Assembly: GCA_948144175.1 (NCBI GenBank)
Contig: CANXME010001993.1
Location: 558,001-622,000, forward strand
Length of the DNA stretch: 64,000 nucleotides
Source: Closterium sp. NIES-65
Lineage: Eukaryota; Streptophyta; Zygnematophyceae; Desmidiales; Closteriaceae
Reading direction: 5' to 3'
Part shown: in pieces, positions 10,878 through 38,403 of the stretch
How the letters are laid out: each line of letters opens with the position of its first letter
Numbering within the stretch: position 1 is the stretch's first letter
Notes under the pieces: model-generated
Told to the model about the DNA's origin: nothing
The model's input: the letters and a program-made list of their open reading frames with translations, nothing else
Database searches by the model: none
Program-made: the position numbers and the translations under genes

Positions 10878-11005
10878 TGTGAGAATAAATGATCAGCATA
10901 ATGACTAAGCCAGTGTTGGGTACAAATACAACCCTAGAAAGCTGTACCCCATATGTGCTACCCCACTATAGCCTACAAACATGTATCAGCTATAATAATC
11001 TGACA
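10878..11005 (-). repeat. 3' LTR of element C
   Basis: 128 bp, reading TGTCAG...CTCACA on the minus strand. It differs from the 5' LTR by a 4-bp indel with nearby substitutions and one further substitution. Confidence 0.93.
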
Positions 11006-11198
11006 CACCCCCATAGGCAAAGTGGGGGAGAACAAGGGGTCACAAGACCAGTCAAGCAAAGCAAGCTCAGGGTGGATCACAAAGTCACCACACAGTCCGA
11101 GCACAAGAGCAGGGCCAGAGGCCAGTTCACATGCAGGAGTACAGACATATATATAACACTAGACAAGCAGGAGCAGGTATGTCACAGTACAAGTAAAG

Positions 11199-14100
11199 TC
11201 AAGAAGAGAGCAAGTGAGGCAAGACAGGCACAAGACCCAGCTGGGTGCAGAAGCGCTGATGGTCACAAGGCGCGAGTGCCTTGGTGAACACATCAGCAGT
11301 GTTGGCCTCAGAGGCCACGTACGCAAGTCGCAACTGACCACGCTGCTGCAGCTCACGAGCAAGGAAGTAACGGAGAGCAATGTGCTTCGTTCTGTGCTCC
11401 AAACGCTGCTCTCGACACAAGGCCAGCATGGCCTTGTTGTCTACGTACAGCACTGGAGGAGAACGAGGCGGCTCTCCAAGGTCAGTCAGCAGGTAGGTGA
11501 GCCAGCGAAGCTCCTGTGCAGCCATGGCCCCGGCGTAGATCTCAGCCTCACAACTGGAGCTGAGAACCGAAGACGAACGAGTAGACCGCCAAGAGACAGA
11601 GCCGGAACCAAGACTGAAGGTGTAACCCTGTGACGACCGCTGCGTAGCCTGGTCGTCAGCCCAAGAAGCGTCCGCGTGGCCTGTAAGGACCACTGGACTC
11701 CGCCCTCCAAGCACTAGCCCCATGCCCGACGTACTGCACAGGTAGCGCAATACCCTCTTCGCTGCAGCCATGTGCTCTGGTCGGTGTCTCCCAGGAGCAA
11801 CATAGCGTGCGAGAATGCTAAGAGGGTATGCAAGGTCAGGTCGAGTGCAGGTCATCAGGTACATGAGGCAGCCAACAAGCTCTGGGTACGGGCCACTCGA
11901 CTCTACGGACTCATCCGAAGGCAGAGCTGAGAGTGAGTGGCGAGTAGACAGAGGAGTGGCCTGAGGCGAGGAGTACGTGAAGCCGAAGCGCTGAAGGACC
12001 TGCTGCACCATGTGTGACTTAGTCAAGGTCATGGTGCGGCGTGCTCTGTCCCGAGTGATCTGCAAGCCAAGGTAGCTGCGCAGTTCACCCAGGTCTGTGC
12101 ACGTGTGTCTCTTCAGTAGCTCGGACTTCACGTAGGCGAGTCCAGCAGTGTCCGCTGTGGCAAAGACCAAGTCGTCGACGTACACGAGGATGTAGAACGG
12201 CGGCAGTGAAGTGTCGGTGCGCAGAAACAGCGACGGGTCAGCAGTAGACGGAGCAAACCCAAGAGCCGCAAGCGTAGTCCTCAGTGTGTCGTGCCACTCA
12301 CGCGGTGCCTGGCGGAGACCGTAGACTGGCCGTCGGAGGCTCCACTGGGTGCCAGGAGGGAAAGTCCCAGTGAAGCCAGGTGGACGGCGCAGCCAGATCT
12401 CCTCGTGCAGGCTACCCTGCAGGAACGCAGTGCTGAAGTCGAGAGAGTGAAGCTCGTAGTCGCGCTGAGCGGCTATGTGCAGCAGCACCCGAAGAGTGGT
12501 CATCTTCGGGGTGGGAGAGAAGGTCTGAAAGTAGTCAACTCCCTACCGCTGACTGAAGCCACGAGCAACGTACCGCGCCTTGAAGATAGGTGGAGAGCCC
12601 GGCGGCCGCTTCACCCGGAAGATCCACATGCCACTGACGATGTTCGCCCCAGGAGGGGGAACTGCGTCAACGTAGGTGCCTGTGGACTTCCAGGAAGCCA
12701 TCTCTGCATCCATAGCTGCCTGCCACTGAGAGGAGTAGGGACCCTCTACGGCCTCCGCGTAAGAGCGCGGAGTCGGGATGTCTAGTGCATCCGGGTCTCC
12801 CTCAGGAGCAAGCAGTACAGACGCGAGATGAGGTGAAGCAGCAGCCAGACACTGTAACTCCTCCTGCCTGTCCTCTAGGACGTCCGTGCCAAGAGCACAC
12901 TCACCCCCGACGGACGGAGGACAGACAGACGCAGACTCAGCAACCAGACTAGCAGCGTAGTCTAGACGACAGCGAGCAGCTAAGTCGACGAGCTTAGCGA
13001 CAAGAGCAGACGCAGCAGTGGACTCAAACGAGGGGTCAGTGACGATAGTAGCAAGCAGACGCGTGACAGTAGGACTGGCAGCACGAAGAGAGTCCGACTC
13101 AGGGTCGGCAAGCGCAGGAAGAGAGGACTCAAGAGGAGAAGGCAAAGGGGCACGCAGAGGAGCAGTGGACGGACGCAGAGACATCCGGTGCGTGCCAGGG
13201 ACAGGAGGAGGACGCGGACGGGAACCGCGACCACTAGCGTGAGCAGTACGAACAGGCGACGCGGGACGAGACGCAGGCTCACGACGCTCAGTAAGACCTC
13301 CAGTAGGACCAGTGTAAGGAGAGGGAGCAGGCAGAGGAGAGGAAGGCTCCAACAAGGACTGCGACTGGACAGGCTGCGGACACTCTACCGGAGGAGAAAG
13401 ACCAAGAACCTGCTGCAGGAGCGGAACGAAGTACGGCCGAGGCCGCGCGGCAGCTCCAGACTCAGCAGGGATAGCACCAGCACCCTCAGCGACAGTACCA
13501 GCGCCACCAACACCTCCACCGGCAGGACCTCCAGCAGTACCAGCAGCAGAACCACAGCGAGGACAGACAGCAGTGGTCTCAGCACCAACCCCCTCAGCAG
13601 CTCCAGCTCCAGGAGGACCCGCAGGCCCAGCAGCTCCGGGACCGGCAGCACCAGCACCCTCGACTGTCGAAGAAGCTCCAGCTCTAGCAGCACGCCTCCA
13701 GCGGTGAGCAAACCACTCGCGCAGCTCCTGTGGAGAGAGGGGCTCCCGTTGAGACGCAGCAGCAGGAGAAACCCCAGGCTCAGCACCCCCAGGCTCAGCA
13801 GCTCCCAACTCAGCACCCCCAGGCTCAGCAGCTCCAGGCACAGCACCCCCCGGCTCAGCACCCTCCGCAGTAGTACCCCCAGGCTCAGCACCCCCAGGCT
13901 CAGCAGCTCCCAACTCAGCACCCCCAGGCTCAGCAGCTCCAAGCACAGCACCCCCCAGCTCAGCACCCTCCGCAGCAGTACCCCCAGGCCCAGCACCCCC
14001 AGGCTCAGCACCCCCAGAGTCAGCACCCCCAGGCTCAGCACCCGCAGCAGCACCAGAGTCACCAGTAACCTCGACCGGGTCAACTGCGTCTACCTGGGAC

Positions 14101-16643
14101 ACACCTGAGGGGGCAGGAACCTGAGGGGGGAGGGGGTCTACCGGGGGAGGAACCGGCACAAGGAAGTCCGGCGAAGGGGGGAGGGAAGGAGTGCGGTAGG
14201 GGAAGAGGCGGTAGAAGGGGACTGACTCGTCGAACGTGACGTCCTGGGAGGACAGAACACGGCGAGAGGTGGGGTGGTAGAACTGCCACCCTGGTGTGTC
14301 AGGGGGGAAACCCAGGAAGACACAGGGAGCAGCACGAGGGGACAGCTTGTCCGCAGACAGGTCGCGGACAAACGCCCGAGATCCCCAGACACGGAACGCA
14401 GACGCATCGCCAACCTTCCCCGTCCACAGCAAAGCTGGGGAGGTCTCCGGCATGGAGACCCTGGGGTGAAGGTTGATCTGATGCGCCGCGTATCGGACCG
14501 CAAACGGCCACAGAAAATGGGGGGCAGCCGCATGCATCATGGACGTACGGGCGACGTCCATGACCATGCCAATGCGGCGCTCAGCAATCCCATTTTGCTG
14601 TGGAGAGTCCGGAAGCGTGAAGGTCTGGCGGATGCCTCGTGCACGACAGTAGGCTCGCAGAAGGCCAGAGGAGAACTCTCCGCCTCTGTCCGAGTGCAGA
14701 CGCAGAACAGGAAAGTCCGAGCCGAAGCTCTTCCTGAGCTGGAGACGAGCCTCGCGGATCCAGTCGATCAGCACCTCAGCGACAGCACCCTTGCTGAGCA
14801 AGGGGAGGACCGTGGTGTAACGCGAGTAGTCGTCAACCACCAACAGAAAGTAGCGCTCGTGACCCTGCCCACGGACGGGGGCTGGGCCCCACACGTCCAT
14901 GTGAAGCGTCTGCAGAGGAGCCTCTGTCGGGGGGAACTGAGAGGAGTGAGGAGCAGCCCGGAGGCGACCCTCGACACAGGGGACACAGGAAGGTCCTGGC
15001 CCGGAGGGAAGGGGAGGGAGAGACTGGGGAAGACCAGAGACAAGGACACGGGAAGCCATGCTCCGAAGACGGGGCAAGGAGGGGTGACCAAGACGGTGGT
15101 GCCAAAGGAGAGTCTCGTGAGACAGGAGGCGAGAAGAACAGGGGGCAGACTCAGGACCTGACCGGGACGCAGCAGCAAGCACCTGACCTGACGCAGCCAC
15201 CTGACCAGACGCAGGGACAGGAGGAGACTCAACGGTCAGGGTGTAGAGACTCGACCCCGGCCGACGCGAGAACGTGGCCAGGTGTCGGCCTGTGCGTGCC
15301 TCCGTGCAGTGGGTCACCCGCTGACTCGCAGGAGTGAACTGGTGAACCCCCACATCCTGCAGGTCTGCGCCACTCACCAAGTTCGTAGAGAACGAGGGAA
15401 GGTACAGACCAGACAGGGTGCCCGAAGGGGCAGCCGGACACGGGAGGACAGTGGAGAAGTGAGAGAGGACAGGACCCCCAGAGGGGTCAGCCAGGGAGAC
15501 GGCAACCGGCCGGCCAAGCGGCGTAAGGGTGGTGCGGTCTCGAAAGAAGGAGCGAGAAGCCCCAGAGTCAAGTGTGAAAGTAAGGGAGGACGAGGGCGAC
15601 GCAGTACCTGAGAGCGCAGTCTCACCAGTACCTGAGAGCGCAGACGCACTGGCACCTAGAGCTGCAGCCTCACAAGCACCTAGCGCAGCAGTACCAATGC
15701 CCGGGTCGGGCTGGAAACACCGGTAACCCTCAGTCTCCTCACTAAGAGTCACAGCATACATAGCAGCAAGGATAGCATCAAAATCAAGATCAAAGATCGC
15801 TACACCAGCCCTAAGAAGCTCATCCCAGTGAGGGATCTCACTAGCCCCGGGGAACTGCTGACGCCAAGCGTCCGTCAGGCGGCCAAAACAGCGCTGAGTG
15901 GGGTGGGCACCCCCACACTGCTCACCCGCGCGGTCGCCGGAACGAAGGACGTAGGTGCAAGGACCAGTACCCCCACCCCTCTGACGTTGAGTGTACCACT
16001 CACGAAGCTGCTGAGGCGGAGGGATGTCCCGCGAACGCTGCTGCTGCTGCTGCTGCGAGCGCTGCGCACCACCACCGCCGCTCCGCTGCTGGGTACCACC
16101 CCGACCAGCTCCACCCCCTCCACCACCACCGCCTCCTCCGCTGCCTCCTCCGCCGCCTCCACCTCCGCCGCTGCCACCACCACCACCGCTGCCACCACCA
16201 CCGCCGCCTCGGCAGCTGCCGCCACCACCACCACCACCCCCGCCACCACTCCCGCCGCCACCCCCACTCCCTCCGCCGCCTCCGCCGCCACCGCCACCGC
16301 CCCCTCCAGCTCCACCCGCACCCTTGCCCCCCTTGCTCTTGCCAGAGCGGCGTCTCCCACTAGGGGCAGACGCCGCGCCGACCGACTCAAGACCAAGCAG
16401 GTCGGCAGCAGCAGCAGAGGCAACAGAGGGCAGCAAGGGGGAAGGAGAGCACCCCTCAAAGATGGGGGTGCGAGGGTCTCCACGAGAAGCTCCTACATCG
16501 ACTATGCTCTTCTCCGCTGCTAGGAGGGCCTTCTCGAGGACGTCGACGGTGAGGGTGGTGGGACAGACTGCGAGAAAGTGGTCCCTGACTACGCGAAGGG
16601 AGTCAGGGAGGCGTGCAACTACGTAGTAGAGAGTGATGTACAT
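11199..16643 (-). pseudogene. copia gag-pol polyprotein (element C), one in-frame stop
   Basis: A long frame from 16643 to 12543 (1366 codons) holds the second half of gag, protease, integrase and the start of RT; it continues in the same frame from 12503 to 11199 with the rest of RT and RNase H. The two are separated by a TAG at 12543-12545 where element E has CAG (Gln in SQRQGADYF), a single C-to-T change. Motifs in order: glycine tract (16110-16330), C-X13-C-X3-H-X4-C (about 15965-15890), protease DSGAS (near 15570), HHRLGHP (near 15095), LHMDVWGP (near 14900), LHSDRGGEF (near 14695), QQNG (near 14600), Gly-Ala-Glu-Pro repeats (13770-14050), YVDD (12171-12182), RNase H ending at 11199. Confidence 0.93.
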
Positions 16644-17116
16644 GGGGGGGGGGGGTTCTTAGCGCAGAACTCAGCAGGAAGGGCGGCGCGGTAGCGAGTG
16701 TCACTAGTGCGGAGGTGCGTAATGAGGTCAGCGACAGTGGGAAAGGCAGAGATGTCAGGAAAGAGGTAGGGAAGCATGAGACGGCTCAGTGCAGCAGTGG
16801 CAGGGGAGGAGTAGCGCGCAACTACAGCGTCGTACAAGGTCTGAGCACTCTTGTACTGACTAAAGTGCGCGCGCTCAGAGGTAGGGAGGTGGCGACGCAC
16901 AGCAAGACGTGCAGCAGCATCGCGGGTGGCCCGTTGAGAGCGCACAGTGGGATCAGCATCAGCAGCAGGAGCAGGAGAGGCGCCAGAGGTAAGGTCAAAG
17001 AGAGAGAGGCCGTCTGCCCTATCGCACTGTAAAAACAACTGCAGGTCGTCTACCCAGACCTCAAAGTCAATGGCGCGACCCTCAGCGTCAAAAGCTAGGA
17101 CACTAGGGGTAGCCAT
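16619..17116 (-). pseudogene. copia gag N-terminal part (element C), out of frame with pol
   Basis: Starts at the ATG at 17116 (MATPSVLAFDAEGRAIDFE). About 150 residues match the N-terminal gag domain of the relatives. The frame is lost at a run of twelve C on the coding strand (16650-16661); element E has ten bases interrupted by a T at the same place and stays open. The rest of gag is read in the frame starting at 16643. Confidence 0.88.
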
Positions 17117-18056
17117 GACGACGACAGCGAAGCAGTGCAAGCAGTAGGGGAAGAGCACGCAGTGACAGTGGGACTGTGCTCACCAGGCAGGGCAGGCCGG
17201 ACAACTCTGCAGAAGGGCGGCTCGGCGACTCAGCGACTCGGCTGCTGGGCGGCTCGGCTCCCGGGCGGCTCGGCGACAGGGCGGCTCTGGTTCAGGGCAG
17301 CTCGGCTCCCGGGCGGCTCGGCGTGTAGGGCGGCTCGGCTCCCGGGCGGCTCGGGTGCGGGGCGGCTCGGCTGCACTGCTGCTCGGCTGCTGCAGGTGGG
17401 CGGCTCGGCTGCTGCAGGTAGGGTGGCGGGGCCGTGAGATCAGGGGCAGCGGGGCCGAAGTAGCAGGGCCGGCAGGTGCAGCGGCGGGGACGGCGGGGCC
17501 GCGGCTGGTGGAGCGGCGGAGCCGGCAGAGAGGGCGGCGGAGCCGCGGCTGAGCAGGCGGCGGGGCCGGCGGCGTAGTCGGCGGCTGGGCCGCGTCGTAG
17601 TGGGCGGCGGGGCCGCGTCAGAGCAGGCGGCGGGGCCGCGTCAGAGGCGGCGGCGGGGCCGCGTCAGATCAGGCGGCGAGGCCGCGTCAGAGGCGGCGGC
17701 GGGGCCGCGTCAGATCAGGCGGCGGGGCCGCGTCAGAGGTGGCGGCGGGGCCGCGTCAGATCAGGCAGCGGGGCCGCGTCAGAGGTGGCGGCGGGGCTGC
17801 GTAAGAGGTGGCGGCGGGGCCGTGTCAGAGCAGGCGGCGGGGCCGCGTCGTAGCGGGCGGCGGGGCCGCGATCGGGCGGCGGGGCCGCGACGTGGCGGCG
17901 GGGCCGGGATCCGGTGGCGGGGCCGCGATCAGAAGGGGTGGCGGGGCCGCGTCTGAGGGACGGCGGGGCCACGAGGGAAAGGGCGACTCGAGGGGTCGCT
18001 AAAAAAAATGCGCGCCTCGGGGCGCGCTTCGGTGGGCCCTAGGCAACGTTCCCACA
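17117..18056 (-). repeat. GC-rich leader of element C with two tandem-repeat blocks
   Basis: The 5' untranslated leader between primer site and gag. Block one (17215-17410) repeats GGGCGGCTCGGCTCCC-type units; block two (17590-17960) repeats units of roughly 19-36 bases around GGCGGCGGGGCCGCGTCAGA. A short inverted repeat GCGCGCC/GGGCGCGC lies at about 18010-18027, followed by palindrome GGGCCC at 18034-18039. Open frames across it are composition artefacts. Confidence 0.8.
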
Positions 18057-18075
18057 GGGAACTCGCTCTATACCA

Positions 18076-18207
18076 TGTGAGAATAAATGATCAGGATGAT
18101 GAATGACTAAGCCAGTGTTGGGTACAAATACAACCCTAGAAAGCTGTACCCCATATGTGCTACCCCACTATAGCCCACAAACATGTATCAGCTATAATAA
18201 TCTGACA
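18076..18207 (-). repeat. 5' LTR of element C
   Basis: 132 bp, the partner of 10878-11005. It is preceded on the plus strand by ...CTATACCA, the end of the primer-binding site. Confidence 0.93.
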
Positions 18208-19536: not shown

Positions 19537-22500
19537 TTAAATGCCGCCTCTAGAAGCACCACCAGCACCAGCAGCAGCATCCCCACTCTCATCCTCCTCG
19601 CTCATCCCCTCACTGTCCTCCTCATAAGCAAGTCGCCCCGGGGTGCCCTCCATGCGTGTGGGCACGGCCACCCACTGCATGCCCGTCTGCTCGTCCTCCT
19701 CCAGGATCTCCGCTGGCCGCCTCCCCCGCCCCTCCCGCACCGCATGCCCGTGCGACGACGCCTGTGCTGGCTGGCCCTCGTCCGAATCCTCGTCCTCCGA
19801 TATCTGAGGGGGAAGGAGAAGGGGTTTGGACAGGATGGATTGAGACAGGAAGGGGTGGAAAGAAAGCCGGTGACACAGAGCGATGAATTGAGATAGATCA
19901 TGGGACACATGCATGGATGAGGAGTCTGCTGGGGCAACAGGTGAGGGTTTTGGACAAGAGCGGAACACAAAACCAACGCCTCCTCAGTCACTCAAACCAA
20001 TCCCTCCTCGACAACCACTCAAATCAACCCCTTTCACACCAATTCCTGCTTCATTTCACACCCTTCGCCAGCGATCCATGCTTTTGTTGATTGCAACCCA
20101 TCTACCATCTGCCTGAGGTGTAAAAGCGTCAGCTTCAGCATACCTCGTCCTCTTCCTCCTCGTCCTCCTCTTCTTCCTCTTCCTCTTCCTCCTCCTCTTC
20201 ATCCTCCTCCTCGCCAATGTCAACGGCGTCTTCCCCAGTCTCCTCCAGCTCTTGCAGGAACTGATGGTGAGCCAGCCAGGTGCATAACAAGGACAGGGAC
20301 AGGGACAAGGACAAGGACAAGGACAAGGACAAGGACAAGGACAAGGACAAGGACAGGGACAGGGACAGGGACAAGGACAAGGACAAGGACAAGGACAAGG
20401 ACAAGGACAAGGACAGGGACAGGGACAAGGACAAGGACAAGGACAGGGACAGGGACAGGGACAAGGACAAGGACAAGGACAAGGACAAGGACAAGGACAA
20501 GGACAAGGACAAGGACAAGGACAAGGACAAGGACAAGGACAAGGACAGGACAGGGACAAGGACAAGGACAAGGACAAGGACAAGGACAAGGACAAGGACA
20601 AGGACAAGGACAAGGACAAGGACAGGGACAAGGACATGGACAAGGACAAGGACAAGGACAAGGACAAGGACAAGGACAAGGACAAGGACAAGGACAAGGA
20701 CAGGGACAGGGACAAGGACAAGGACAAGGACAAGGACAAGGACAAGGACAAGGACAAGGACAAGGACAAGGACAGGGACAAGACAAGGACAAGGACAAGG
20801 ACAGGGACAGGGACAGGGACAAGGACAAGGACAAGGACAAGGACAAGGACAAGGAGAAGGACAAGGACAAGGACAGGGACAAGGACAGGGACAAGGACAA
20901 GGACAAGGACAAGGACAAGGACAAGGACAAGGACAAGGACAAGGACAAGGACAGGGACAAGGACAAGGACAAGGACAAGGACAGGGACAGGGACAGGGAC
21001 AAGGACAAGGACAAGGACAAGGACAAGGACAAGGACAAGGACAAGGACAAGGACAAGGACAAGGACAAGGACAAGGACAGGGACCGGGACAGGGACAGGG
21101 ACAGGGACAAGGACAAGGACAAGGACAAGGACAAGGACAAGGACAAGGACAAGGACAAGGACAAGGACATGGACAAGGACAAGGACAAGGACAGGGACAA
21201 GGACAAGGACAAGGACAAGGACAAGGACAAGGACAAGGACAAGGACAAGGACAAGGACAAGGACAAGGACAAGGACAGGGACAGGGACAGGGACAAGGAC
21301 AAGGACAAGGACAAGGACAAGGACAAGGACAAGGACAAGGACAAGGACAAGGACAAGGACAAGGACAAGGACAGGGACAGGGACAGGGACAGGGACAAGG
21401 ACAAGGACAAGGACAAGGACAAGGACAAGGACAAGGACAAGGACAAGGACAAGGACACAACAACAACAAAATACAGAATACAAAAAACGGAGAAGGGGGA
21501 GGTCAGGGGGGTGGGGAGGTCAGGGGGATGGGGAGGTCAGGGGGGTGGGGAGGTAGAGTCAACAGAGGAGTGAGGGGTTGCTGGGTTGGTGGAAAGACGA
21601 CAGACACAAGCGGGTTGGTGGAAAGACGACAGACACAAGCGTGTTGGTGGAAAGACGACAGACACAAGCGTGCAATGCAAGCAGGCAGACGCGCGGGTGC
21701 ATAGCATATGCAAAAACACATTTGGGCAGGAACAGCACACCACACCCTCTTCCTCCCACACCCCCCGTTCCACTCAAAGCTCAGAGGCAGCACGGAAACA
21801 GCACTCACCGCCTCCTCCTCCTCCTGCTCGCGTGCCATGATGGCCTCCATCTGCTCCTGCGTCACCACCCTGCCTTGCTGTGGGGGGGGTGGGTTGGAAG
21901 AGAGAGGAGCGAGGGAGACAGTGGGAGGGACAGGGGAGAGGGGGAATCATTGAAGTGCCATGATGGCCTCCATCTGCTCCTGCGTCACCACCCTGCCTTG
22001 CTGTCGCGGGGTGGGGCAGAGAGAGAGGCGGAGAGGGGAGAACATTGAAATGGGGGGTTCAAGTCGGGGGACGCTTTTAAGTGCCATGACGACCCCCGCC
22101 TGCTCCCCACCCGGGTCACCACCCTGCCTTGCTGCCATGGGCGAGACAGTGGGAGGGAAGAGGGGGAAGGGAGGTAACACGGACCACATGTGCTCCCCAG
22201 CCAACAGGGAGGGACGGCCTTCCACGGAGCATTGGATGATTGGAATGGCATGAGGGCCTCCCTGTACTGCTGCGTCACCACCCCCCTGCCTTGCTGCGTC
22301 ACCACCCCCCTGCCTTGCTGCGTCACCACCCCCCTGCCTTGCTGCGTCACCACCCCCCTGCCTTGCTGCGTCACCAACCCCCTGCCTTGCTGTGGTGAGG
22401 ACATGTGGCAGGGCAGGGAGTGACATAGAAGAGAGAGGGACATAGAAGAGAGAGGGACAGGGGGGCGGAGGAGACAGAGACAGGGACAGGGATGGGGGAG

Positions 22501-25500
22501 AGAGGGGACCTGGTGACGGGGGAGAGGAGGGCAGTTCAACGCGGCGGTGGCGGGAAAGAAAGAACAAGGGCAGCCCCCCCAGAGCACACAGTGTCCCACC
22601 ACACCACACCGTAGCGTGCCCGTACCCCAAGCTGCCTTTCCTGTTTCCATCCCCAGCCGTGCAGCTGACGTGCTGCATGACGTTGAAGCGGTCCTGGCTG
22701 AGCCCACCTGCACTCCCACCTGCACTCCCACCTGCACTCCCACGTGCTCATCATAACTACGTGCTGCCCCAACAGCAGTGCACCTGGCGCACGACGTTGA
22801 AGGGGTCCTCGCTGGGCTCACCTGCCCGTCCCCCCCACCTGCATCTCCAGCCCTGCCGTGCTGCTGACCTGGCGAACGACGTTGAAGGGGTCTTCGCTGG
22901 GCTCACCTGCACACACGCCTGCTCATCTTCCCTACCTCTACCCCCCGCCAACCATGCAGCGCACCTGGCGCACGACGTTGAAGGGGTCTTCGCTGGGCTC
23001 ACGCTTCCCTGCACCCCCATCCCTACGACCATCCCTGCACCCCCATCCCTACGACCATCCCTGCACCCCCATCCCTACGACCATCCCTGCACCCCCATCC
23101 CTACGACCATCCCTGCACCCCCATCCCTACGACCATCCCTGCACCCCCATCCCTACGACCATCCCTGCACCCCCATCCCTACGACCATCTCCTGCTGACC
23201 TGGCGCACGACATTGAAAGGGTCCTCGCTGGGCTCGTGGAAATTGGGTCCGCGGTAGTCCACCACGTGGTCGGGCGCCTGCTCGTAGTTCACTGTTGGGT
23301 AGACTGGGTCGCCGCCCCACACTGCATGGTGTGTAAGGGAGGGGAGCACAGCGAGCATGGGCGGGCAGACGAGGCAGACGATGCGGGCGTGTGGGGTAAT
23401 CCACCACAAGGTGTGGCTGCTCGTAGTTCACTGTTGGGTACACTAGAAAGCCGCCCCACACTGCATGCACGGAGGTGGGGCGGGGCGGTGAGTGAGAAGA
23501 GCACAGCAGGCAGATCCGGTAGGAGGCTGGTCTGTAGGGTACAGTGGGTCACCGCCCCACACTGCACGGTACACCACCCCACACTGCACGGAGAGTGCAA
23601 TTGGGGCAACCATGGAGAGTGCAATTGGGGCAACCATGGAGAGCGAGTGGAAGGAAGAGGGGAAGAGGGGACAGGAGGAGGGAAGGGGAGAGGGGAGAGG
23701 GGTGAGGGGAGAGGAGAGAGGAAGGGCGAGAGGAGGCGAGAGAGGAGGTGAGAGAGGTGGGGAGAGAGGAGGGGGTTTCCACTGCCCTTCTGCTACTCAC
23801 CTTACTTGAACTGCCCCTCACCGCACTCCACAGCACCTCACCGCGCTGCACCGCTGCTCACCGTGCTTGCACTGCTTCTTGTCCATTCGGATAGCCAGTG
23901 GACCCTTCTGCATCTCACCCTTCTGCTCACCTCTGCCCCTCAGTTCACACACCTCCCCTCACCGCACTGCACCGCTGCTCACCGCGCTTGCACTGCTTCT
24001 TGTCCATGCGGATGGCGAGCGGGTCCTTCTGCAGGCGCACGTCCCTCCCACACATGGCGTTGTACTCGCGCTGGGTCTGGTGGGGGGGCGTGGCGTGGAA
24101 GAGAAAGGGAGGAGTGGCGTGGAAGAGTTGAAGATGAGAGGATGAGAGCCATCCATGCGCACATGTGCTGCACATACCACCCATCCATGCGCACATGTGC
24201 TGCACATACCACCCATCCATGCGCACATGTGCTGCACATACCACCCATCCATGCGCACATGTGCTGCACATACCACCCATCCTGCATGGCGAGCATGTCA
24301 CCTGCACTGCACTGCATGACAGCACCGCACCTGCATGACAGCACCGCACCTGCATGACGAGTATCTGGTGCTCCATAGACCGGCCCGTATGTCACCTGCA
24401 TGGACCCACCCCACCCCACCCCAACCCACCCCACCCCACCACATCCCACCCCTCCCACCGCACCTGCATGGCGAGCATGTCGAGGATCTGGTGCTCCATG
24501 GGCCGCCCTGTCTCCCTCGCCACGCGCCGCACCGCCTTGAGCGACGTGTCATGAGGCCATGCCGCCACCCACTCCTGGTAGTACGCCAAATCGCCCAGGC
24601 GATGCCGCAGCTCCTCCTCTTTTGCCAGTCTGGTGGAGAGGGCAGATGAGGGGCGCACAGGTGGGTGTGGGCGCACAGAGGGAGAGGGGGAGTGCACAGG
24701 TGGGTGTGGGCGCACAGAGGGAGAGGGGGAGTGCACAGGTGGGTGTGGGCGCACAGAGGGAGAGGGGGAGTGCACAGGTGGGTGTGGGCGCACAGAGGGA
24801 GAGGGGGAGTGCACAGGTGGGTGTGGGCGCACAGAGGGGTGTCATGAGGCCATGCCGCCACCCACTCCTGGCAGTACGCCAGGTCGCCCAGTCGCTGCCG
24901 CAGCTCCTCCTCCTTTGCCAGTCTGGAAAACGCATGGGTGTGCGCACAAAGTGGGGGTGGGCGCACAAAGTGGGGGTGTGCGCACAAAGTGGGGGTGGGC
25001 GCACAAAGTGGGGGTGTGCGCACAAAGTGGGGGTGTGCGCACAAAGTGGGGGTGTGCGCACAAAGTGGGGGTGGGCGCACAACGGGGGGAGGGAGCACAA
25101 GGGGCAGGTGGGCGCACAGAGGGGTGTCATGCGGCCATGCCGCCACCCACTCCTGGCAGTACGCCAGGTCGCCCAGTCGCTGCCGCAGCTCCTCCTCCTT
25201 TGCCAGTCTGGAAAACGCATGGGTGTGCGCACAAAGTGGGGGTGGGCGCACAAAGTGGGGGTGTGCGCACAAAGTGGGGGTGTGCGCACAAAGTGGGGGT
25301 GGGCGCACAACGGGGGGAGGGAGCACAAGGGGCAGGTGGGCGCACAGAGGGGTGTCATGCGGCCATGCCGCCACCCACTCCTGGCAGTACGCCAGGCCGC
25401 CCAGGCGATGCCGCAGCTCCTCCTCCTTTGCCAGTCTGGTGGAGTGGGCGCACAAAGGGAGAGGGGGAGTGCACAGGGGAGTGTCATGAGGCCATGGCGC

Positions 25501-26289
25501 CCACCCACTCGAGTCACGAGTCACAGAAGCTGCACAACTGCCTGCAGGGCTCAACATGGGAACAAACTGGATGAATTGTTACGCTACCCGCCCTACCGCT
25601 TCACTTTCACAATGGCCCCCTCTCCCTCACTGCCCATCCCCCGTCACCTTTCCCTCCCCCCCAACTATCCTTCCAGCCTCCCACACCAGAGCCCACCTCT
25701 TGTCTGCCAGTTCCTCGACTCATCAATATTCTACCTGCTGGTCCATCCACCCTCACCTTCCACACTACCCTCCCGCCCTCACAGTGCCCCACCTCTCTCT
25801 TTTACCCGAGTACCCTTCCGTCCTCACCTTACCTCCTTTTTTTGCCCCCACCCCACCCTGCCCGCATCTCTCTATCACCAGCGAGGCGAGAGGCACCCTG
25901 GCGCGCACGGGCTCTTCTGAGTCGACAAAATGATCCTTTACCTGATGACCACACGCAACTCCCCCCAATCTCACAGTACCGCACCTCTTCGTCCACCAGC
26001 AGCATGCGGCACACCCGAGAAAGCACGGCTTCTGCTGTGGTGGGCGTGGCAGTGGCGCCGTGAAGGTTGATGATCCATCCACCCTCACCCACCCCCACCC
26101 CCAGCCCCCCCCCCCCCCACCCACCCCCTCTTCAGTATCCTCCGCCCTCACCCAGTGCCGCACCTCTCATCTGCAAGTGGCTTGCGGCGCACCCTAGCCA
26201 GCACAGCCTCTGCCGTGGTGGGCTTGTCGCCATGCAGCCTGATGTGCCCCGCCTCCGCTGCTGCTAGCGCCATGGCCTGCGAGATGGGG

Positions 26290-26325
<36 letters not shown>

Positions 26326-28369
26326 GGGGATGAGGGCGCGGAGGAGGGGAGGAGGGCAGCAGACAGAGAGGGATGCCTCACTGTGCAGCGCACCCTGATG
26401 TGCCCCGCCTCCGCTGCTGCCAGTGCCATCGCCTGCAGGGTGGAGGGGCAGGTGAGTGGGGGGAAGAGGGGGGTGCGGGATGGGAGGGAGAGAAGAGGGT
26501 GGGGAGAGAGAGAGAGGGGCAGGGAGACGACCTGGTCATCTGCTGCTGCTGCTGCCAGCGACATGGTCTGGGGAAAGGGGGGGAGGGAAAACGGAGACCC
26601 GGAAGGAGGAATGCGCATGTGAGAATGGCGCCACGTGGCGAAGCAGTGAGTACATGCTGGCCACACCCCACCCCACTCTACACCACCGACACACCACACC
26701 ACACCACACCACGCCACGCCACACCACACCACACCCCACCCCAGACCACACTACCCACACCCCATCCCACCGCATCTGTGGTGGCAGCCTCGTCATGGCA
26801 TCCCATCCCATCATGTAAGCACCCACCCAAGACACCCCACACACCCCATTCTGCCACGAAGCACACCCCGCCCCACCCCACCCCACCCCACACCACACCA
26901 CCCACATCCCATCCCACCGCAGCGCACCGCATCGGTGGTGGCGGCCTCCTTCTGCCAGGCGGTCCAGATCTGCTGCTCGCCTTCGTTCTTCTGCCAGTTC
27001 CACCACACCTCCTCCTCCCCCACCACCTCCAGAGGCCCCACCTCCCCCACAAACGCCTCCCCCCGCGCCCACGCGCCCACCCCCCCCGCAGCCCCCTTCT
27101 CCTGCGCCAACCCCTGCCCGTCAGCGCCCAGCTGCTTCCCCCCTGCAGCAGCAGCAGCCTCTCTCTCGCGGTCCTCCAACGCCCACGCCGCTCGCATGCG
27201 CGCCCACCCGCTCAGCCCCCTCAGCGCCGCGCTCTCCGCCTCCCACGCCTCGTCCTCCTCCTCCTCCCAAAACCGCCCGCCCCCCCCGCTGCGCGCCAAC
27301 CCCCCCTCCCCCGCGTCCTCGTCCTCTCCCTCCTCTCCCTCCTCTCCCTCCTCTCCCTCTTGCTCCTCCTCCGTTTCGTCCCCCTTCCCCCACTCATCCT
27401 CCTCGTCCTCGCCCCCGCTTCCCTCTCCGCCACCCCTCATGCCCGCAGGCACGTACTCGCGCCCCTCCGCGCGCGCCATGTGTGCGCGCACGCGCTCCAG
27501 CGCGTTCGCCTCGCCCACGAGCAGGTTGCGCGCGCGGGGGAAGCGCTCGCCCTCGTTGGGGCGCGAGCAGACGGGGCGGATGTAGATGAAGGGGGAGGGG
27601 TACGACTGGTGCGACGCGAGGTAGTTTGGATTCGCGGATTCTTTTATATCCGTTATAAGGAACTCCTCCGCGTCTCTATACTCCTCCACTGCTGCGCGCA
27701 CTGCCTCCGCCTCCGCCTCCGCGCGCCTCCGCGCCTCCACCTCCCGCCGAACCTCCTCCGCCGTCCGCCAACCCCTGTCATCGACCTCCCCCGCCCCCAT
27801 TCCCGCGCTCATCTCGCCCTCCCCTTCTCCCTCCCCATCTTCCGCCTCCCCCTCCGTGCCTGTCCCCGCGCGCGGGTCCCACTCCCCGTAGCTCGCATAC
27901 CCCGCCCGCTCGTATCTCCCCCTCCCCTCCGCCTCCCCCCTCGCTCGCGCCTTTCCTGCCTGCCGCCTGCTGCTTCTGCTGCTGCCGCCGCCGCGTTGTG
28001 AAGAGGGCGCACGCAGCAATGGGGATCCGGCACGTGGCAATCTCCTGCAACGCGAGAACGCGGGGGGAAGGGGAAGGGATGAGTGGGCGCTTCGATCGGC
28101 GCTGAGAGGCGAGCGGGTGGCGAGACGCGATACACGAGAGGAGCAGATTAGAGTGGGAGAGAATGAGGGAGCGGGAGAGTGGGCGAGTGGACGAGTAGGC
28201 GAGAGAGCGAGAGCGCGAGGGGACGAGGGACGAACCTGACGAGCGGACACGCTGAGGATGCACTGCCGCACCGGACAGCCGCACGCAGCCTCGGCCGACC
28301 GCCAAGCCATTGGCGCAGCGACGCTCTCGGCGCAGCGGCTCGCAGAGGCGGCGTCACGATCGCCTCCAT
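19537..28369 (-). CDS. PTAC12: pTAC12/HEMERA (PAP5)-like plastid transcription protein, nine exons
   Basis: Exons on the minus strand: 28369-28236, 28044-26928, 26276-26164, 24629-24464, 24076-23983, 23321-23200, 21877-21809, 20260-20144, 19803-19537. All eight introns are GT-AG and all phases join, giving 2199 bases, 732 residues. The ATG at 28369 sits in GCCGCCATGG and opens an Arg/Ala/Ser-rich, transit-peptide-like stretch. Family motifs from my knowledge of Arabidopsis pTAC12: WWNW (residues 392-395), GHIRLHG, LAYYQEWVAAW, TQREYNAM, DPLAIRM, WGGDPVYPTVNY, DYRGPNFHEP, then EDAVDIG and a Glu/Asp-rich block in exon 8. In plants the protein is part of the plastid-encoded RNA polymerase complex and also acts in phytochrome signalling in the nucleus. 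At 732 residues it is longer than the Arabidopsis protein (about 527) because exon 2 has extra acidic and low-complexity sequence (257-290). Identity is strong from exon 2's end onward; the first exon is inferred. Confidence 0.87.
19804..20143 (-). other. intron 8 of the HEMERA-like gene
   Basis: Donor GACGAG|GTATGC at 20143 and acceptor CCCCTCAG|ATATCG ending at 19804. 340 bases, the one downstream intron without obvious tandem repeats or exon copies. Confidence 0.8.
20261..21808 (-). repeat. intron 7 with about 1.17 kb of GGACAA hexanucleotide repeat
   Basis: GGACAA/GGGACA-type hexamers run from about 20287 to 21457, about 195 units with AAGGAC and AGGGAC variants in clusters. In the transcript the tract reads UUGUCC and ends about 27 bases before exon 8, in the place of a polypyrimidine tract. 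Further upstream in the intron are about four 28-bp units (GTTGGTGGAAAGACGACAGA + CACAAGCG) at 21583-21670 and GGGGAGGTCAGGGGG units at 21497-21553. The long open frames across the tract on both strands come from its lack of stop codons. Confidence 0.95.
21878..23199 (-). repeat. intron 6: exon 6 end copies, exon 7 copies, minisatellites
   Basis: Four extra copies of the last roughly 36 bases of exon 6 with a GT following (about 22965-23002, 22869-22905, 22793-22820, 22672-22707; EDPFNVVRQ). Seven or so 26-bp units of CCCTGCACCCCCATCCCTAC + GACCAT at 23010-23188. Five 24-bp units GCGTCACCACCCCCCTGCCT + TGCT at about 22262-22395, which are amplified from the start of exon 7. A nearly full copy of exon 7 at about 21957-21998 keeps its acceptor but has no GT donor after ATCATGGCACTTCAATG. 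Confidence 0.85.
23322..23982 (-). repeat. intron 5: partial copies of exons 5 and 6
   Basis: A copy of the end of exon 5 with its GTGAGC donor lies at about 23850-23915 (PLAIRMDKKQCK). Partial copies of the start of exon 6 lie at about 23399-23466 (VYPTVNYEQP) and 23525-23575. Between 23640 and 23775 is GGGAGAGGAGAG-type simple sequence. Confidence 0.8.
24077..24463 (-). repeat. intron 4: 31-bp tandem repeat and exon 4 end fragments
   Basis: Four units of about 31 bases (GCGCACATGTGCTGCACATA + CCACCCATCCAT) at 24157-24280. Fragments of the exon 4 end plus donor (MEHQIL, CATGCAG|GTGCGG) recur at about 24285-24380. Confidence 0.8.
24630..26163 (-). repeat. intron 3: tandem copies of exon 4 plus minisatellites
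   Basis: Three further copies of the first roughly 85 bases of exon 4 with its acceptor start at 25435, 25207 and 24922 (minus strand; LAKEEELR...EWVAAWPHDT), spaced 228, 285 and 293 bases from one another and from the true exon start at 24629. A fragment of a fifth lies near 25486-25510. Between copies lie minisatellites: about 33-bp units of GTGGGTGTGGGCGCACAGAG type (24658-24836) and 18-20 bp units of GCGCACAAAGTGGGGGTG type (24945-25080, 25225-25310). A second copy of the end of exon 3 (TTAEAVLSRVC) lies at about 25984-26062. Confidence 0.85.
26277..26927 (-). repeat. intron 2 with partial exon copies and a 44-G tract
   Basis: Contains a run of 44 G at 26291-26334, which is C44 in the transcript and lies 14 bases before exon 3. 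Two partial copies of the start of exon 3 (about 26394-26433 and 26531-26568, MALAAAEAGHI-like and MSLAAAAA-like) and one copy of the end of exon 2 (about 26771-26795, ATTDAV) are present, separated by CACACC-type simple sequence (26660-26760, 26820-26910). Confidence 0.8.
28045..28235 (-). other. intron 1 of the HEMERA-like gene (inferred)
   Basis: Donor CAG|GTTCGT and acceptor TTGCAG|G. Removing these 191 bases joins the frame starting at the ATG at 28369 to the main exon-2 frame in phase. Without the intron, translation could start at the ATG at 28310 in the exon-2 frame; I prefer the spliced model because of the start context and phase fit. Confidence 0.6.
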
Positions 28370-31026: not shown

Positions 31027-31164
31027 TGTGGTAATGAGTAAGCAGGAATGAGTGGGACTATGAATGAAAGCAGTACAAATATGAAACCCTAACTGGGTTG
31101 TACCCCCTATGGGATACCCCACTACAGCCTACACAGCAGTATAAGCTATGGATATGTTCTGACA
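31027..31164 (-). repeat. 3' LTR of element E
   Basis: 138 bp, TGTCAG...CCACA on the minus strand, with target duplication TGCTA to its left. Confidence 0.95.
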
Positions 31165-31373
31165 CACCCCCATAGGCAAAGTGGGGGAGAACAAGGGGTC
31201 ACAAGACCAGTCAAGCAAGACAAAGCAAAGCTCAGGGTGGATCACAAAGTCACCACACAGTCCGAGCACAAGAGCAAGGCCAAAGGCCAGTTCACAAGCA
31301 AGAGTACAGACATATATATATAAAACTAGACAAGCAAGAGCAGGTATATATATATGTCACAGTACAAGTAAAG

Positions 31374-34300
31374 TCAAGAGGAGAGCAAGTGAGGCAAGAC
31401 AGGCACAAGACCCAGCTGGGTGCAGAAGCGCTGATGGTCACAAGGCGCAAGTGCCTTGGTGAACACATCAGCAGTGTTGGCCTTAGAGGCCACGTACGCA
31501 AGTCTCAACTGACCACGCTGCTGCAACTCACGAGCAAGGAAGTAGCGGAGAGCAATGTGCTTCGTTCTGTGCTCCAAGCGCTGCTCTCGACACAAGGCCA
31601 GCATGGCCTTGTTGTCTACGTACAGCACTGGAGGAGAACGAGGCGGCTCTCCAAGGTCAGTCAGCAGGTAGGTGAGCCAGCGAAGCTCCAGTGCAGCCAT
31701 GGCTCCGGCGTAGATCTCAGCCTCACAACTGGAGCCGAGAACCGAAGACGAGCGAGTAGACCGCCACGAGACAGAGCCGGAACCAAGGCTGAAGGTGTAA
31801 CCCTGTGACGACCGCTGCGTAGCCTGGTCGTCAGCCCAAGAAGCGTCCGCGTGGCCGGTAAGGACCACTGGACTCCGCCCTCCAAGCACTAGCCCCATGC
31901 CTGACGTACTGCACAAGTAGCGCAATACCCTCTTCGCTGCAGCCATGTGCTCCGGTCTGTGTCTCCCAGGGGCAACATAGCGTTCAAGAATGCTCAGAGG
32001 GTATGCAAGGTCAGGTCGTGTGCAGGTCATCAGGTACATGAGGCAGCCAACAAGCTCTGCATACGGACCACTCGACTCTACGGACTCATCCGAAGGCAGA
32101 GCTGAGAGTGAGTGGCGAGTAGGCAGAGGAGTGGCCTGAGGCGAGGAGTACATGAAGCCGAAGCGCTGAAGGACCTGCTGCACCATGTGTGACTGAGTCA
32201 AGGTAATGGTGCGGCGTGCTCTCTCCCGAGTAATCTGCAAGCCAAGGTAGCTGCGCAGTTCACCCAGGTCTGTGCACGTGTGTCTCTTCAGCAGCTCGGA
32301 CTTCACGTAGGCGAGTCCAGTAGTGTCCGCTGTGGCAAAGACCAGGTCGTTGACGTACACGAGGATGTAGAACGGCGGCAGGGAAGTGTCGGTGCGAAGA
32401 AACAGCGACGGGTCAGCAGTAGAAGGAGCAAACCCAAGAGCCGCAAGCGTAGTCCTCAGTGTGTCGTGCCACTCACGCGGTGCCTGGCGGAGACCGTAGA
32501 CTGGTCGTCTGAGGCTCCACTGGGTGCCAGGAGGGAAAGTCCCAGTGAAGCCAGGTGGACGGCGAAGCCAGATCTCCTCGTGCAGGCTACCCTGCAAGAA
32601 CGCAGTGCTGAAGTCGAGAGAGTGAAGCTCGTAGTCGCGCTGAGCGGCTATGTGCAGCAGCACCCGAAGAGTAGTCATCTTCGGGGTGGGAGAGAAGGTC
32701 TGAAAGTAGTCAGCTCCCTGCCGCTGACTGAAGCCACGAGCAACGTACCGTGCCTTGAAGACAGGTGGAGAGCCCGGCGGCCGCTTCACCCTGAAGATCC
32801 ACATGCCACTGACGATGTTCGCCCCAGGAGGGGGAACCGCGTCAACGTAGGTGCCTGTGGACTTCCAGGAAGCCATCTCTGCATCCATGGCTGCCTGCCA
32901 CTGAGAGGAGTAGGGGCCCTCTACGGCCTCCGCGTAAGAACGCGGAGTCGGGATGTCTAGTGCATCCGGGTCTCCCTCAGGGGCAAGCAGTACAGACGCG
33001 AGATGAGGTGAAGCAGCCGCTAGACACTGTAACTCCTCCTGCCTGTCCTCTAGGACGTCCGTGCCAAGAGCACACTCACCCCCGACGGACGGAGGACAGA
33101 CAGACGCAGACTCAGCAACAAGACTAGCAGCGTAGTCGAGACGACAGCGAGCAGCAAAGTCGACGAGCTCAGCGACTAGAGCAGACGCAGCAGTGGACTC
33201 AAAAGAGGGGTCAGTAACGACAGTAGCAAGTAGACGCGTGACAGTAGGACTCGCAGCGCGAAGAGAGTCCGACTCAGGGTCGGCAAGCGCAGGAAGAGAG
33301 GACTCAGGAGAAGGCAAAGGGGCACGCAGAGGAGCAGTGGACGGACGCAGAGACATCCGGTGCGTGCCAGGGACAGGAGGAGGACGCTGACGCGAACTGC
33401 GACCACTAGCGCGAGCAGCACGAACAGGCGACGCGGGACGAGACGCAGGCTCACGACGCTCAGCAAGACCTCCAGTAGGACCAGTGTAAGGAGAGGGAGC
33501 AGGCAGGGGAGAGGAAGGCTCCAGCAGGGACTGCGACTGGACAGGCGGTGGACCCTCTACTGGAGGAGAAAGACCAAGAACCTGCTGCAGGAGCGGAACG
33601 AAGTACGACCGAGGCCGCGCGGCAGCTCCAGACGCAGCAGGGACAGCACCAGCACCCTCAGCGACAGCACCAGCGCCAACCACACCTCCAGCGGCAGGAC
33701 CAACAGCAGTAGGCTCAGCACCAGCGCCCTCAGCAGCTCCAGCTCCAGGAGGACCCGCAGGTCCAGTAGCTCCGGGACCGGCAGCACCCGCACCCTCGAC
33801 GGTCGAAGAAGCTCCAGCTCCAGCTCCAGCAGCACCTCTAGACTCAGCAGCACGCCTCCAGCGGCGAGCGAACCACTCGCGCAGCTCCTGTGGAGAGAGG
33901 GGCTCCCGCCGAGACGCAGCAGCAGGAGAAACCCCAGGCTCAGCAGCTCCAGACGCAGCACTCCCAGGCTCAGCAGCTCCCAGCTCAGCACCCCCAGGTT
34001 CAGCAGCTCCCGACCCAGCACCCCCAGACCCAGCACCTCCAGGCACAGCACCCCCAGGCTCAGCACCCCCAGGCTCCGCACCCTCCGCAGTAGCACCCGC
34101 AGGCCCAGTACCCCCAGTAGTAGCACCCCCAGGCTCAGCACCCCTGCGCACAGCATCCCCAGAGTCAGCACCCCCAGGCTCAGCACCCGCAGCAGCACCA
34201 GAGTCACCTGTAACCTCGACCGGGTCAACGGCGTCTACCTGGGACACACCTGAGGGGGCAGGAACCTGAGGGGGGAGGGGGTCTACCGGGGGGGGAACCG

Positions 34301-36998: not shown

Positions 36999-37276
36999 GG
37001 TCTGAGCACTCTTAACTGACTAAAGTGCGCACGCTCAGAGGTAGGGAGGTGGCGACGCACAGCAAGACGTGCAGCAGCATCGCGGGTGGCCCACTTAGAG
37101 CGGACAGCGGGATCAGCATCAGCAGTAGGAGCAGGAGAGGCGCCAGAGGTGAGATCAAAGAGAGAAAGGTCGTCAGCCCTGTCGCACTGTAAGAACAGCT
37201 GTAGGTCGTCTAACCAGACCTCAAAATCAATGGCGCGACCCTCAGCGTCAAAAGCTAGGACACTAGGGGTAGCCAT
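36983..37276 (-). pseudogene. copia gag N-terminal part (element E), one-base frameshift
   Basis: Starts at the ATG at 37276 (MATPSVLAF). The frame leaves the polyprotein frame near 37014, where the plus strand reads CTCTTAACTGAC; element C reads CTCTTGTACTGAC at the same place. The deletion falls between SQ and the conserved VARYSS motif and separates the first roughly 87 codons from the 1874-codon frame. Confidence 0.88.
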
Positions 37277-38246
37277 GGCGACTACTGTGAAGCAGTGCAA
37301 GCAGTAGGGGGGAGAGCACGCAGTGACAGTGGGACTGTGCTCACCAGGCAGGGCAGGTCGCGCAGCTCGACAGAAAAGCAGAACGGCGACCGGGCGGCTC
37401 GGGTGTACAGCGGATCGGCTCCCGGGCGGCTCGACGGCAGGGCGGCTCGGGTGCAGGGCGGCTCGGCTCCCGGGCGGCTCGGCTGCAGGGCGGCTCGGGT
37501 GCAGGGCGGCTCGGCTCCCGGGCGGCTCGGCTGCAGGGCGGCTCGAGTGCAGGGCGGCTCGGCTCCCGGGCGGCTCGGCTGCAGGGCGGCTCGGGTCCCG
37601 GGCTGCTCGGCGACAGGCGGCTCGGGTCGCGTAGAAGTGAGACGGGGGGGGGGCCGCGTCAGGGCCGGCGGTAGGGCCGCGTAGGAGCCGGGGCAGGGCC
37701 GCGAAGGAGCCGGGGCGGGGCCGTGATAGGAGCCGGGGCAGGGCCGAGTAGGAGGCCGGCGGTGGGGCCGCTTAAGGGGCCGGCTGCGGGGCCGAGTGGG
37801 AGCCAGCTGCGGGGCCGTGGGAGAGCCGGCGCGGGGCCGCGTAGGAGCCGGCGCGGAGCCGCGTAGGGGCCGGGGACGGGCCGCTTAAGGAGCCGGCGCG
37901 AGGCCGCGTAGGAGCTGGCGGCGTGGCCGCGTAAGGGCCGCGTAAGGGGCCGGCGCGGGGCCGCGTAAGGAGCCGGCGGCGTGGCCGCGTAAGGGCCGCG
38001 TAAGGGCCGCGTAAGGGGCCGGCGCGGGGCCGCGTAAGGGCCGCGTAGGAGGCGACGCGGGGCCGCGTAAGGGCCGGGGCGGGGCCGCGTAAGGAGCAGG
38101 CGGCGGGGCCGCGTAAGGAGCAGGGCGGGGCCGCGACAGAGTGGGCGGCGAGGCCGCAGGGGAGAGGGCGACTCGAGGGGTCGCTGAAAAAAAATCGCGC
38201 CTCGGGGGCGCGCTTCGGTGGGCCCAAAAAAATTTTCGGTCCTGGA
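37277..38246 (-). repeat. GC-rich leader of element E with tandem repeats
   Basis: Block one (37380-37620) repeats roughly 57-bp units built from GGCGGCTCGG, CTCCCGGGCGG and CTGCAGGGC. Block two (37640-38160) repeats GGGCCGCGTAAGG-type units of 15-40 bp. An inverted repeat around CGCGCC-TCGGG-GGCGCG (38197-38213) precedes GGGCCC at 38220. The same architecture is seen in C. Confidence 0.8.
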
Positions 38247-38265
38247 GGGACCTAGCTCTATACCA

Positions 38266-38403
38266 TGTGGTAATGAGTAAGCAGGAATGAGTGGGACTAT
38301 GAATGAAAGCAGTACAAATATGAAACCCTAACTGGGTTGTACCCCCTATGGGATACCCCACTACAGCCTACACAGCAGTATAAGCTATGGATATGTTCTG
38401 ACA
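38266..38403 (-). repeat. 5' LTR of element E
   Basis: 138 bp, no difference from 31027-31164 seen by eye; followed by TGCTA. Confidence 0.95.

Follow-up and report, generated by a model that had tools for sequence, protein, structure and literature searches.

Sequence resembling an exon can come to lie beside that exon in several known ways. In tandem exon duplication with mutually exclusive splicing, the exon is copied in full together with both splice sites. In intron gain by tandem duplication of an exon piece containing AGGT, the duplication of exon sequence itself makes the pair of splice sites, and the start of the downstream exon then lies at the 5' side of the intron and the end of the upstream exon at its 3' side. 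Repair of broken DNA is a further source of local copies. Human proximal duplications mediated by synthesis-dependent strand annealing (SDSA) have a mean length of 162 bp and a median of 147 bp (Pace et al. 2009, PMC2671141), and for helq-1 worms, tandem duplications have been explained by an SDSA end that was extended and then end-joined (Kamp et al. 2021, PMC8654963). Here we analyse a window of 64,000 nucleotides from the alga Closterium sp. NIES-65 (contig CANXME010001993.1, positions 558,001 to 622,000; genome assembly of 874 Mb in 2400 contigs), in which the introns of a HEMERA/pTAC12/PAP5 gene, a chloroplast regulator, contain partial copies of the edges of its own exons. The copies are almost always direct, ordered and local, they lie about 150 bp from their parent sequence, and their number varies between near-identical gene copies. 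The explanation that we favour, and consider reasonably probable, is a recurrent local duplication of about 150 bp that acts genome-wide and is combined with selection against whole-exon copies. The Closterium pattern would then be an extreme, gene-shaping variant of repair-mediated duplication, the closest framework.

The gene lies on the minus strand between positions 28369 and 19537. In the spliced model, nine exons and eight GT-AG introns yield 2199 nt including the stop codon and a product of 732 residues. Exon 1, with the start codon at 28369, occupies 28236-28369 and exon 2 occupies 26928-28044. Exons 3 to 8, delimited by the spliced model and by alignment to protein structures, lie at 26164-26276, 24464-24629, 23983-24076, 23200-23321, 21809-21877 and 20144-20260, and exon 9, with the stop codon, lies at 19537-19803 according to the model and to comparison with the annotated Closterium protein P0001. 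Introns 1 to 8 measure 191, 651, 1534, 387, 661, 1322, 1548 and 340 nt. Residues 385-641 of the product align with pTAC12/PAP5 of land plants (E=2e-70, 2.7e-69 and 1.8e-66 for three PDB sequences, from entries 8w9z, 8xzv and 8qma), whereas its N-terminal half is unaligned. These alignments, inspected for two of the three structures, cross the junctions of exons 2-8 with small gaps only. A Pfam scan of the spliced product returned no family at E<=0.001. Relatives were found among 19 proteins of a large protein set, including proteins of Closterium, Marchantia, Selaginella and seed plants; the closest belong to Closterium sp. Naga37s-1 (96-97% identity over the matched part of the searched region) and Closterium sp. 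NIES-64 (55%). P0001, which is a Naga37s-1 protein, agrees with these junctions but has additional sequence at intron 8; its identity over the full length is 78%. A preliminary description of the locus had proposed a pTAC12-like identity and nine exons spliced in phase; the structural matches support the former, and the open product and the junctions of P0001 the latter, apart from intron 8. Judged by its sequence, this Closterium gene is an ordinary HEMERA/pTAC12/PAP5 orthologue.

In order to locate exon copies, each exon with 60-nt flanks was compared by BLASTN with the whole gene. Introns 2-6 contain copies of the ends of exons 2, 3, 4, 5 and 6 and of the starts of exons 3, 4, 6 and 7, and minisatellites are also present in the introns of this gene. 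Every end and start listed in the preliminary description was thus recovered, and the repeated short duplication across exon-intron junctions that it had put forward is borne out by these copies. All of them are on the sense strand and in the adjoining intron, with E values from 5e-4 to 4e-38, and in the introns that hold both kinds (2, 3, 5 and 6) the end copies precede the start copies. Intron 2 carries a 21-nt copy of the exon 2 end followed by the donor and intron sequence (26699-26791, E=3e-8) and two copies of the exon 3 start with acceptor (26548-26587, E=5e-4; 26390-26485, E=3e-19). Intron 3 has a copy of the exon 3 end with donor (25959-26048, E=1e-11), a piece of exon 4 corresponding to its nucleotides 55-84 (25481-25510, E=3e-7) and three copies of the exon 4 start with acceptor (25352-25449, E=4e-38; 25124-25255, E=2e-35; 24839-24970, E=5e-37). 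Two copies of the exon 4 end are found in intron 4, the first without donor (24352-24388, E=1e-6) and the second with it (24273-24299, E=5e-5). Intron 5 contains the exon 5 end with donor (23811-23912, E=2e-27) and two copies of the exon 6 start with acceptor (23532-23570, E=7e-9; 23395-23467, E=1e-17). Intron 6 is the most crowded in this respect, with three copies of the exon 6 end with donor (22963-23000, E=4e-11; 22861-22904, E=3e-13; 22782-22819, E=1e-12), five short copies of the exon 7 start that partly form a 24-bp array (22246-22395) and two longer exon 7 start copies with acceptor (22081-22174, E=1e-9; 21955-22025, E=3e-24), the exonic part of the last being identical over 46 nt. Within the gene, BLASTN found no copy of the edges of exons 1, 8 and 9, of the exon 5 start or of the exon 7 end, and no exon-edge copy in introns 1, 7 and 8. 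As a control for chance, a same-strand copy within 1.5 kb was seen for 6 of the 9 exons, an inverted copy for none and a match in an unrelated locus for one. Duplicate pairs were also concentrated in the gene, with 19 in 5387 unmasked bases compared to one in 2251 bases upstream and none in 1263 bases downstream, in the flanks outside transposons.

The same pattern was encountered in other genes, the first hint being overlapping partial matches next to exons in a cpn60/CCT search. We surveyed 15 genes with 64 exons, namely HEMERA, 11 cpn60/CCT loci and three aminoacyl-tRNA synthetases, and sought copies within 1.5 kb; in the last two families, exon ends were defined by the edges of the hidden Markov model (HMM) match and the nearest GT or AG. 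A same-strand partial copy accompanied 46 of the 64 exons, an inverted copy only one, and nine exons had a match in the one unrelated locus examined for each. For HEMERA and the first five cpn60/CCT loci, three of which had been picked for already visible overlapping matches, the respective counts were 28, 0 and 3 of 35 exons. They were 10, 1 and 4 of 19 for the six remaining cpn60/CCT loci, which complete the family (22 contigs, with one contig taken for each of 11 gene sets in our own grouping), and 8, 0 and 2 of 10 for the synthetases, which are parts of three among seven gene sets, also grouped by us. Overall, 10 of the 11 cpn60/CCT loci and all three synthetase genes have copies, so the pattern is not peculiar to one gene or gene family, contrary to what the HEMERA locus taken alone had led the preliminary description to say. 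Since HEMERA and housekeeping genes are both affected, a gene-specific function is not needed to account for the copies. In the twelve genes made up by HEMERA and the cpn60/CCT loci, only L035, with two exons, lacked copies, and those of L032 consist solely of a 29-bp array next to an exon that is poorly delimited. An introner or another dispersed element as the source is not supported, given the few exons that match the one unrelated locus examined for each compared to those with a local copy.

Of the 71 exon sides that have copies, all had a concordant one nearest to the exon, with a 5' part of the exon lying upstream of it or a 3' part downstream. When all copies were considered, 143 of 145 were concordant and none was full-length, although these counts include the members of tandem arrays in L028, L034 and L032 and are not independent events. 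The copies thus resemble mutually exclusive tandem exons in being extra exon-like sequence that adjoins an exon, but differ from them in that each reaches one splice site or none. Introns between neighbouring exons tended to hold both kinds of copies or neither (both in 14, a single kind in 3 and 2, neither in 7; Fisher p=0.0085, n=26, hand tally). We considered a single insertion that would yield the copies of the upstream exon end and of the downstream exon start together; no mechanism was derived from the co-occurrence, and this candidate was abandoned.

The distance between parent and copy is also characteristic. For the nearest copies (n=63, 12 genes), the offset had a median of 155 bp, with quartiles of 134 and 189 bp, and the spacer a median of 73 nt. 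For the nearest self-duplications of all kinds, the distribution peaked at 140-150 bp, and offsets of 100-200 bp, which make up 67 of 112, averaged 148.7 bp with a standard deviation of 20.1; size here means the offset from parent to copy and not the copied length, and the pooled analysis masked arrays whose units do not exceed 45 bp. Duplications confined to introns peaked in the same range as those that involve exons, offsets of 120-180 bp being found in 29 of 113 and 39 of 93 pairs, respectively. In six genes, 60-base tiles had a local copy in 41 of 66 cases at exon edges, in 41 of 169 in intron sequence without exon likeness and in 33 of 1691 outside genes, where the sequence is mostly transposon and maybe too young for duplications to have accumulated, so that the roughly 10-fold excess in genes may partly be an age effect. 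Turnover is visible in L030, where a 30-bp exon piece occurs twice around a 23-bp palindrome-like filler (sense 1960-2150) and the near-identical twin L041 has only one; the filler could have been left by end joining, the alternative being a deletion in L041.

These features are close to those of SDSA duplications. The latter lie at most 5 kb from their source, and here the spacer is short in a search limited to 1.5 kb; their length is near 150 bp, which is the value found here when measured as offset, and they too can copy splice sites. In the human study (Pace et al. 2009), however, only 4 of 824 duplications had partial exon/intron donors, compared to the 46 of 64 exons affected in Closterium; copies less than 50 bp apart were excluded and the exon example is inverted, whereas the Closterium copies are almost all direct and their median spacer is 73 nt. 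The joining of an extended break end in place of its annealing, as proposed for worms by Kamp et al. (2021), provides a route to such copies, but the duplications of the worm mutants range from about 100 bp to 10 kb with a median of about 1 kb, compared to about 150 bp in Closterium. Open-access titles and abstracts, which do not cover most subscription papers, contained no description of exons flanked by their own partial copies, in Closterium or elsewhere, and intron growth by exon-edge duplication on this scale is not described in the literature reached.

Copies that cross a junction largely preserve its splice site, GT being kept in 34 of 36 donor-crossing copies and AG in 46 of 51 acceptor-crossing copies. 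The decoy donors (n=38) had a median score of 7.49, compared to 7.55 for real donors and 2.65 for random GT, and the decoy acceptors (47 of 53 with AG at or near the junction) a median of 10.74, compared to 12.05 for real acceptors and -4.89 for random AG, using matrices built from the real sites, which were themselves partly picked by the nearest-GT/AG rule. The most extreme case is an exon of L028 (HMM positions 343-399), which is preceded by eleven start copies in steps of about 124 bp, seven of them identical over 97 nt including 40 nt upstream. Because these decoys are identical to the real site, local sequence cannot single out the real 3' splice site, and the natural inference is that exon definition would pick it. 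The L028 array spans sense positions 4510-5814, its unit comprises the 3' splice site and the first 57 nt of the exon, and the twin L038 aligns with it at 99.6%.

We propose that the copies originate from a break in or beside an exon, whose repair would copy about 120-180 nt past the break. The extended end would then be end-joined, leaving a tandem or near-tandem copy, and break repair is probably the source of the duplications. A copy confined to the interior of an exon, or one that takes in an entire exon and its two splice sites, would change the protein and be lost. A copy crossing one splice junction would instead place a half-exon with a single splice site in the intron and would be tolerated because the normal exon is still spliced. 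Introns would in this way grow and fill with decoy edges, which the spliceosome presumably ignores for want of a partner splice site, as exon definition would have it, and not because the sites are weak.

The HEMERA gene was also compared with other copies of it. A second contig, C1829, is a syntenic twin of the window (P2), with shared parts 95-99% identical. The twin carries the same exon-edge copies of exons 2-6, the exons covered by the comparison, and these copies are therefore not a local assembly slip. Three exon 4 start copies with acceptor are present in the window and two in the twin, and two minisatellites have one unit fewer in the twin. Its insertions of transposon size differ from those of the window, and one of them, about 7 kb long, lies within intron 6. 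Conversely, two insertions of about 7.3 kb in the window, at 10878-18207 and 31027-38403, are missing at the syntenic place in the twin; both encode retrotransposon domains (integrase, and an RVT_2 reverse transcriptase in 31027-38403).

Four diverged relatives, P3-P6, are 80-84% identical over the exon 2 query, P6 over 461 of its 961 bases, and in all four exon 2 contains one or more in-frame stops. Their exon 4 is broken by about 90 nt between exon residues 34 and 38, after which a second copy of the exon end follows; this interruption may be an outcome of the duplication process hitting the interior of an exon. The exon 6 start copy nearest to its exon (23395-23467), which is also found in P3, P5 and P6, aligns between the window and the P3-P6 lineage over 124 nt including flanks (E down to 1.6e-16) and at equal distance from the exon, and is therefore older than the split of the two lineages. 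The exon 3 and exon 4 start copies are probably shared as well. For the exon 3, exon 5 and exon 6 end copies of the window, in contrast, only the exons themselves match in P3, P5 and P6, and P3-P6 have exon 5 start copies that are missing from the window. As the copies are partly shared and partly lineage-specific, the process acted repeatedly on HEMERA. P3-P6 (L011-L018) also share long flanking blocks with 91-98% identity within the 19 kb compared, so they spread as one large unit. Among predicted proteins annotated in other strains, P0003 of NIES-64 has P5-like peptides, exon copies included, and P0002 of Naga37s-1 reads through intron 2 and takes in the exon 3 start copy, which is likely a gene-model error caused by the copies. 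Closterium gene predictions and domain searches will include half-exons, as these annotated proteins do.

Several observations weigh against local duplication as we propose it. Between the nearest copies and their exons we counted 308 synonymous and 168 nonsynonymous differences; the resulting dN/dS-like ratio of 0.17 is too synonymous for simple neutral decay, and the synthetases gave 65 and 21 changes and a ratio of 0.10. Of 26 upstream copies only 6, and of 21 downstream copies only 9, could be aligned in the intron flank at the junction, although the exon parts are 79-100% identical; many copies are therefore not plain tandem units today, and most copy ends have diverged too far for a comparison of breakpoints. 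Full-exon copies were absent where 3.5 were expected, a deficit that is only mildly significant, and the donor matrix is weak, since 38% of random GT sites score above the lower quartile for real donors (the corresponding share for acceptors is 5%).

The synonymous bias was examined against dead sequence. Dead exons and copies in P3, P5 and P6 gave ratios of 0.5-0.8 between relatives, a range that omits pairs with small counts (P3 versus P4 exons, 1.85 with 7 changes; window versus P2 exons, 1.27 with 5; window versus P2 copies, 0.38 with 7), and 0.42-0.44 between copy and parent. From the 0.5-0.8 baseline, a dead copy beside a live exon is expected at about 0.25-0.4. The observed ratio was 0.13 for copies at least 92% identical to the exon, 0.11 for those at 86-92% and 0.24 below 86%, and the synonymous differences were balanced (130 GC to AT, 119 AT to GC). 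CpG decay was discarded as the cause, the ratio being 0.19 outside and 0.20 inside CpG context, and so was a mixture of constrained and neutral copies, as no heterogeneity appeared among the 50 of 52 nearest copies having any difference (chi2 55.1, 49 degrees of freedom, p=0.25, from hand-typed counts). The branch that carries the synonymous excess was not settled by polarising with P3-P6, an outgroup that is unsound for some window copies because those predate the split, nor by comparing pairs of copies, which showed 106 synonymous and 80 nonsynonymous copy-only changes. Faster synonymous change in the live exons is one possibility.

The bias and the unmatched flanks would also fit copies that were once part of a working, diverged version of the gene. 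In this alternative, the live exon edge is newly copied by repair from a diverged homologous template (an allele, a homoeolog or a hybrid parent) and the copy is the old native edge, so that the differences would already be synonymous when the copy arises, and the intron flanks unmatched. We regard it as possible, though clearly less probable than local duplication. It accords with a bias that is stronger in the younger copies, with a balance of changes like that between two coding sequences, and with flanks that are mostly unrelated next to near-intact splice sites. Moreover, the C. psl. complex includes a hybrid genome, that of strain NIES-4550, in which sequences of different origin have recombined (PMC10407611). 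However, copies that match in the flank should then look neutral, and this prediction failed, the ratio being 0.19 for 17 copies with an alignable intron flank and 0.17 for 55 without. The homogeneity of the copies also argues against it, and the five twin gene pairs compared are about 99-99.9% identical, so that for those genes a diverged template did not turn up in this genome. A stronger version, in which half-exon copies are fossils of coding edges continually rewritten by short-tract repair from diverged versions while exon definition alone chooses the sites, is slightly more doubtful. Were it true, the splicing machinery would have to choose among several sites of nearly full strength that are sometimes identical.

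Slippage during replication, or unequal exchange involving short repeats that match by chance, would dispense with break repair and treat the minisatellites as the same process on a smaller scale. The many minisatellites in the same introns and the array lengths that differ between near-identical copies are what it would produce, yet slippage does not by itself predict a peak at about 150 bp and a scarcity of 50-110 bp units (those up to 45 bp having been masked), nor the 23-bp filler in the one young case, L030. On balance, slippage seems rather unlikely, and local duplication by repair remains our preferred reading.

The preliminary description had suggested that the copies could feed alternative or cryptic splicing, which is unproven. 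They might in that case be selectively kept for use, either as alternative splice sites or within an isoform, a view that could draw on the low dN/dS-like ratio, on decoy sites near full strength and on the copies included in the predictions P0002 and P0003. Their inner ends tell otherwise: GT follows 0 of 23 upstream copies and AG precedes 3 of 23 downstream copies. Matching of breakpoints, as expected for nested exons, was weak (10 of 23 pairs within 15 nt compared to 6.0 after shuffling, p=0.03; p=0.19 for the median), and we rejected the copies as independent exons or as pieces of an older exon divided by the live exon. Read-through in frame was rejected likewise, the spacing modulo 3 (15/25/23) having no bias to multiples of three, and P0001 skips the copies altogether. 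Selected use is thus improbable.

The genome is repeat-rich and highly duplicated, which might favour an assembly artefact, but the copies stand on twin contigs and some on diverged paralogues, an exon 3 copy is present in annotated proteins from the assemblies of two other Closterium strains, and the differences between copy and exon are codon-structured, all of which makes an artefact very improbable. Recent intron gain by AGGT duplication would account for exon-derived sequence with splice sites inside introns, but the copy order in HEMERA introns 2, 3, 5 and 6 is the opposite of that expected and existing introns grow, so that we give this candidate the least credence of all.

Introns so rich in decoys raise the question of how the cell picks the correct splice site, and if the pattern is general, Closterium would be a natural test of splice-site choice and may preserve former exon sequences next to the live ones. 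Two further repeats were noted at the HEMERA locus. Intron 7 contains an array of about 195 ACAAGG hexamers that extends over 1.17 kb (20287-21457), just upstream of the exon 8 acceptor. In the 5' flank of the gene, a 143-bp direct repeat occurs at 29471 and 30856, its two copies being 95.8% identical and 1385 bp apart.

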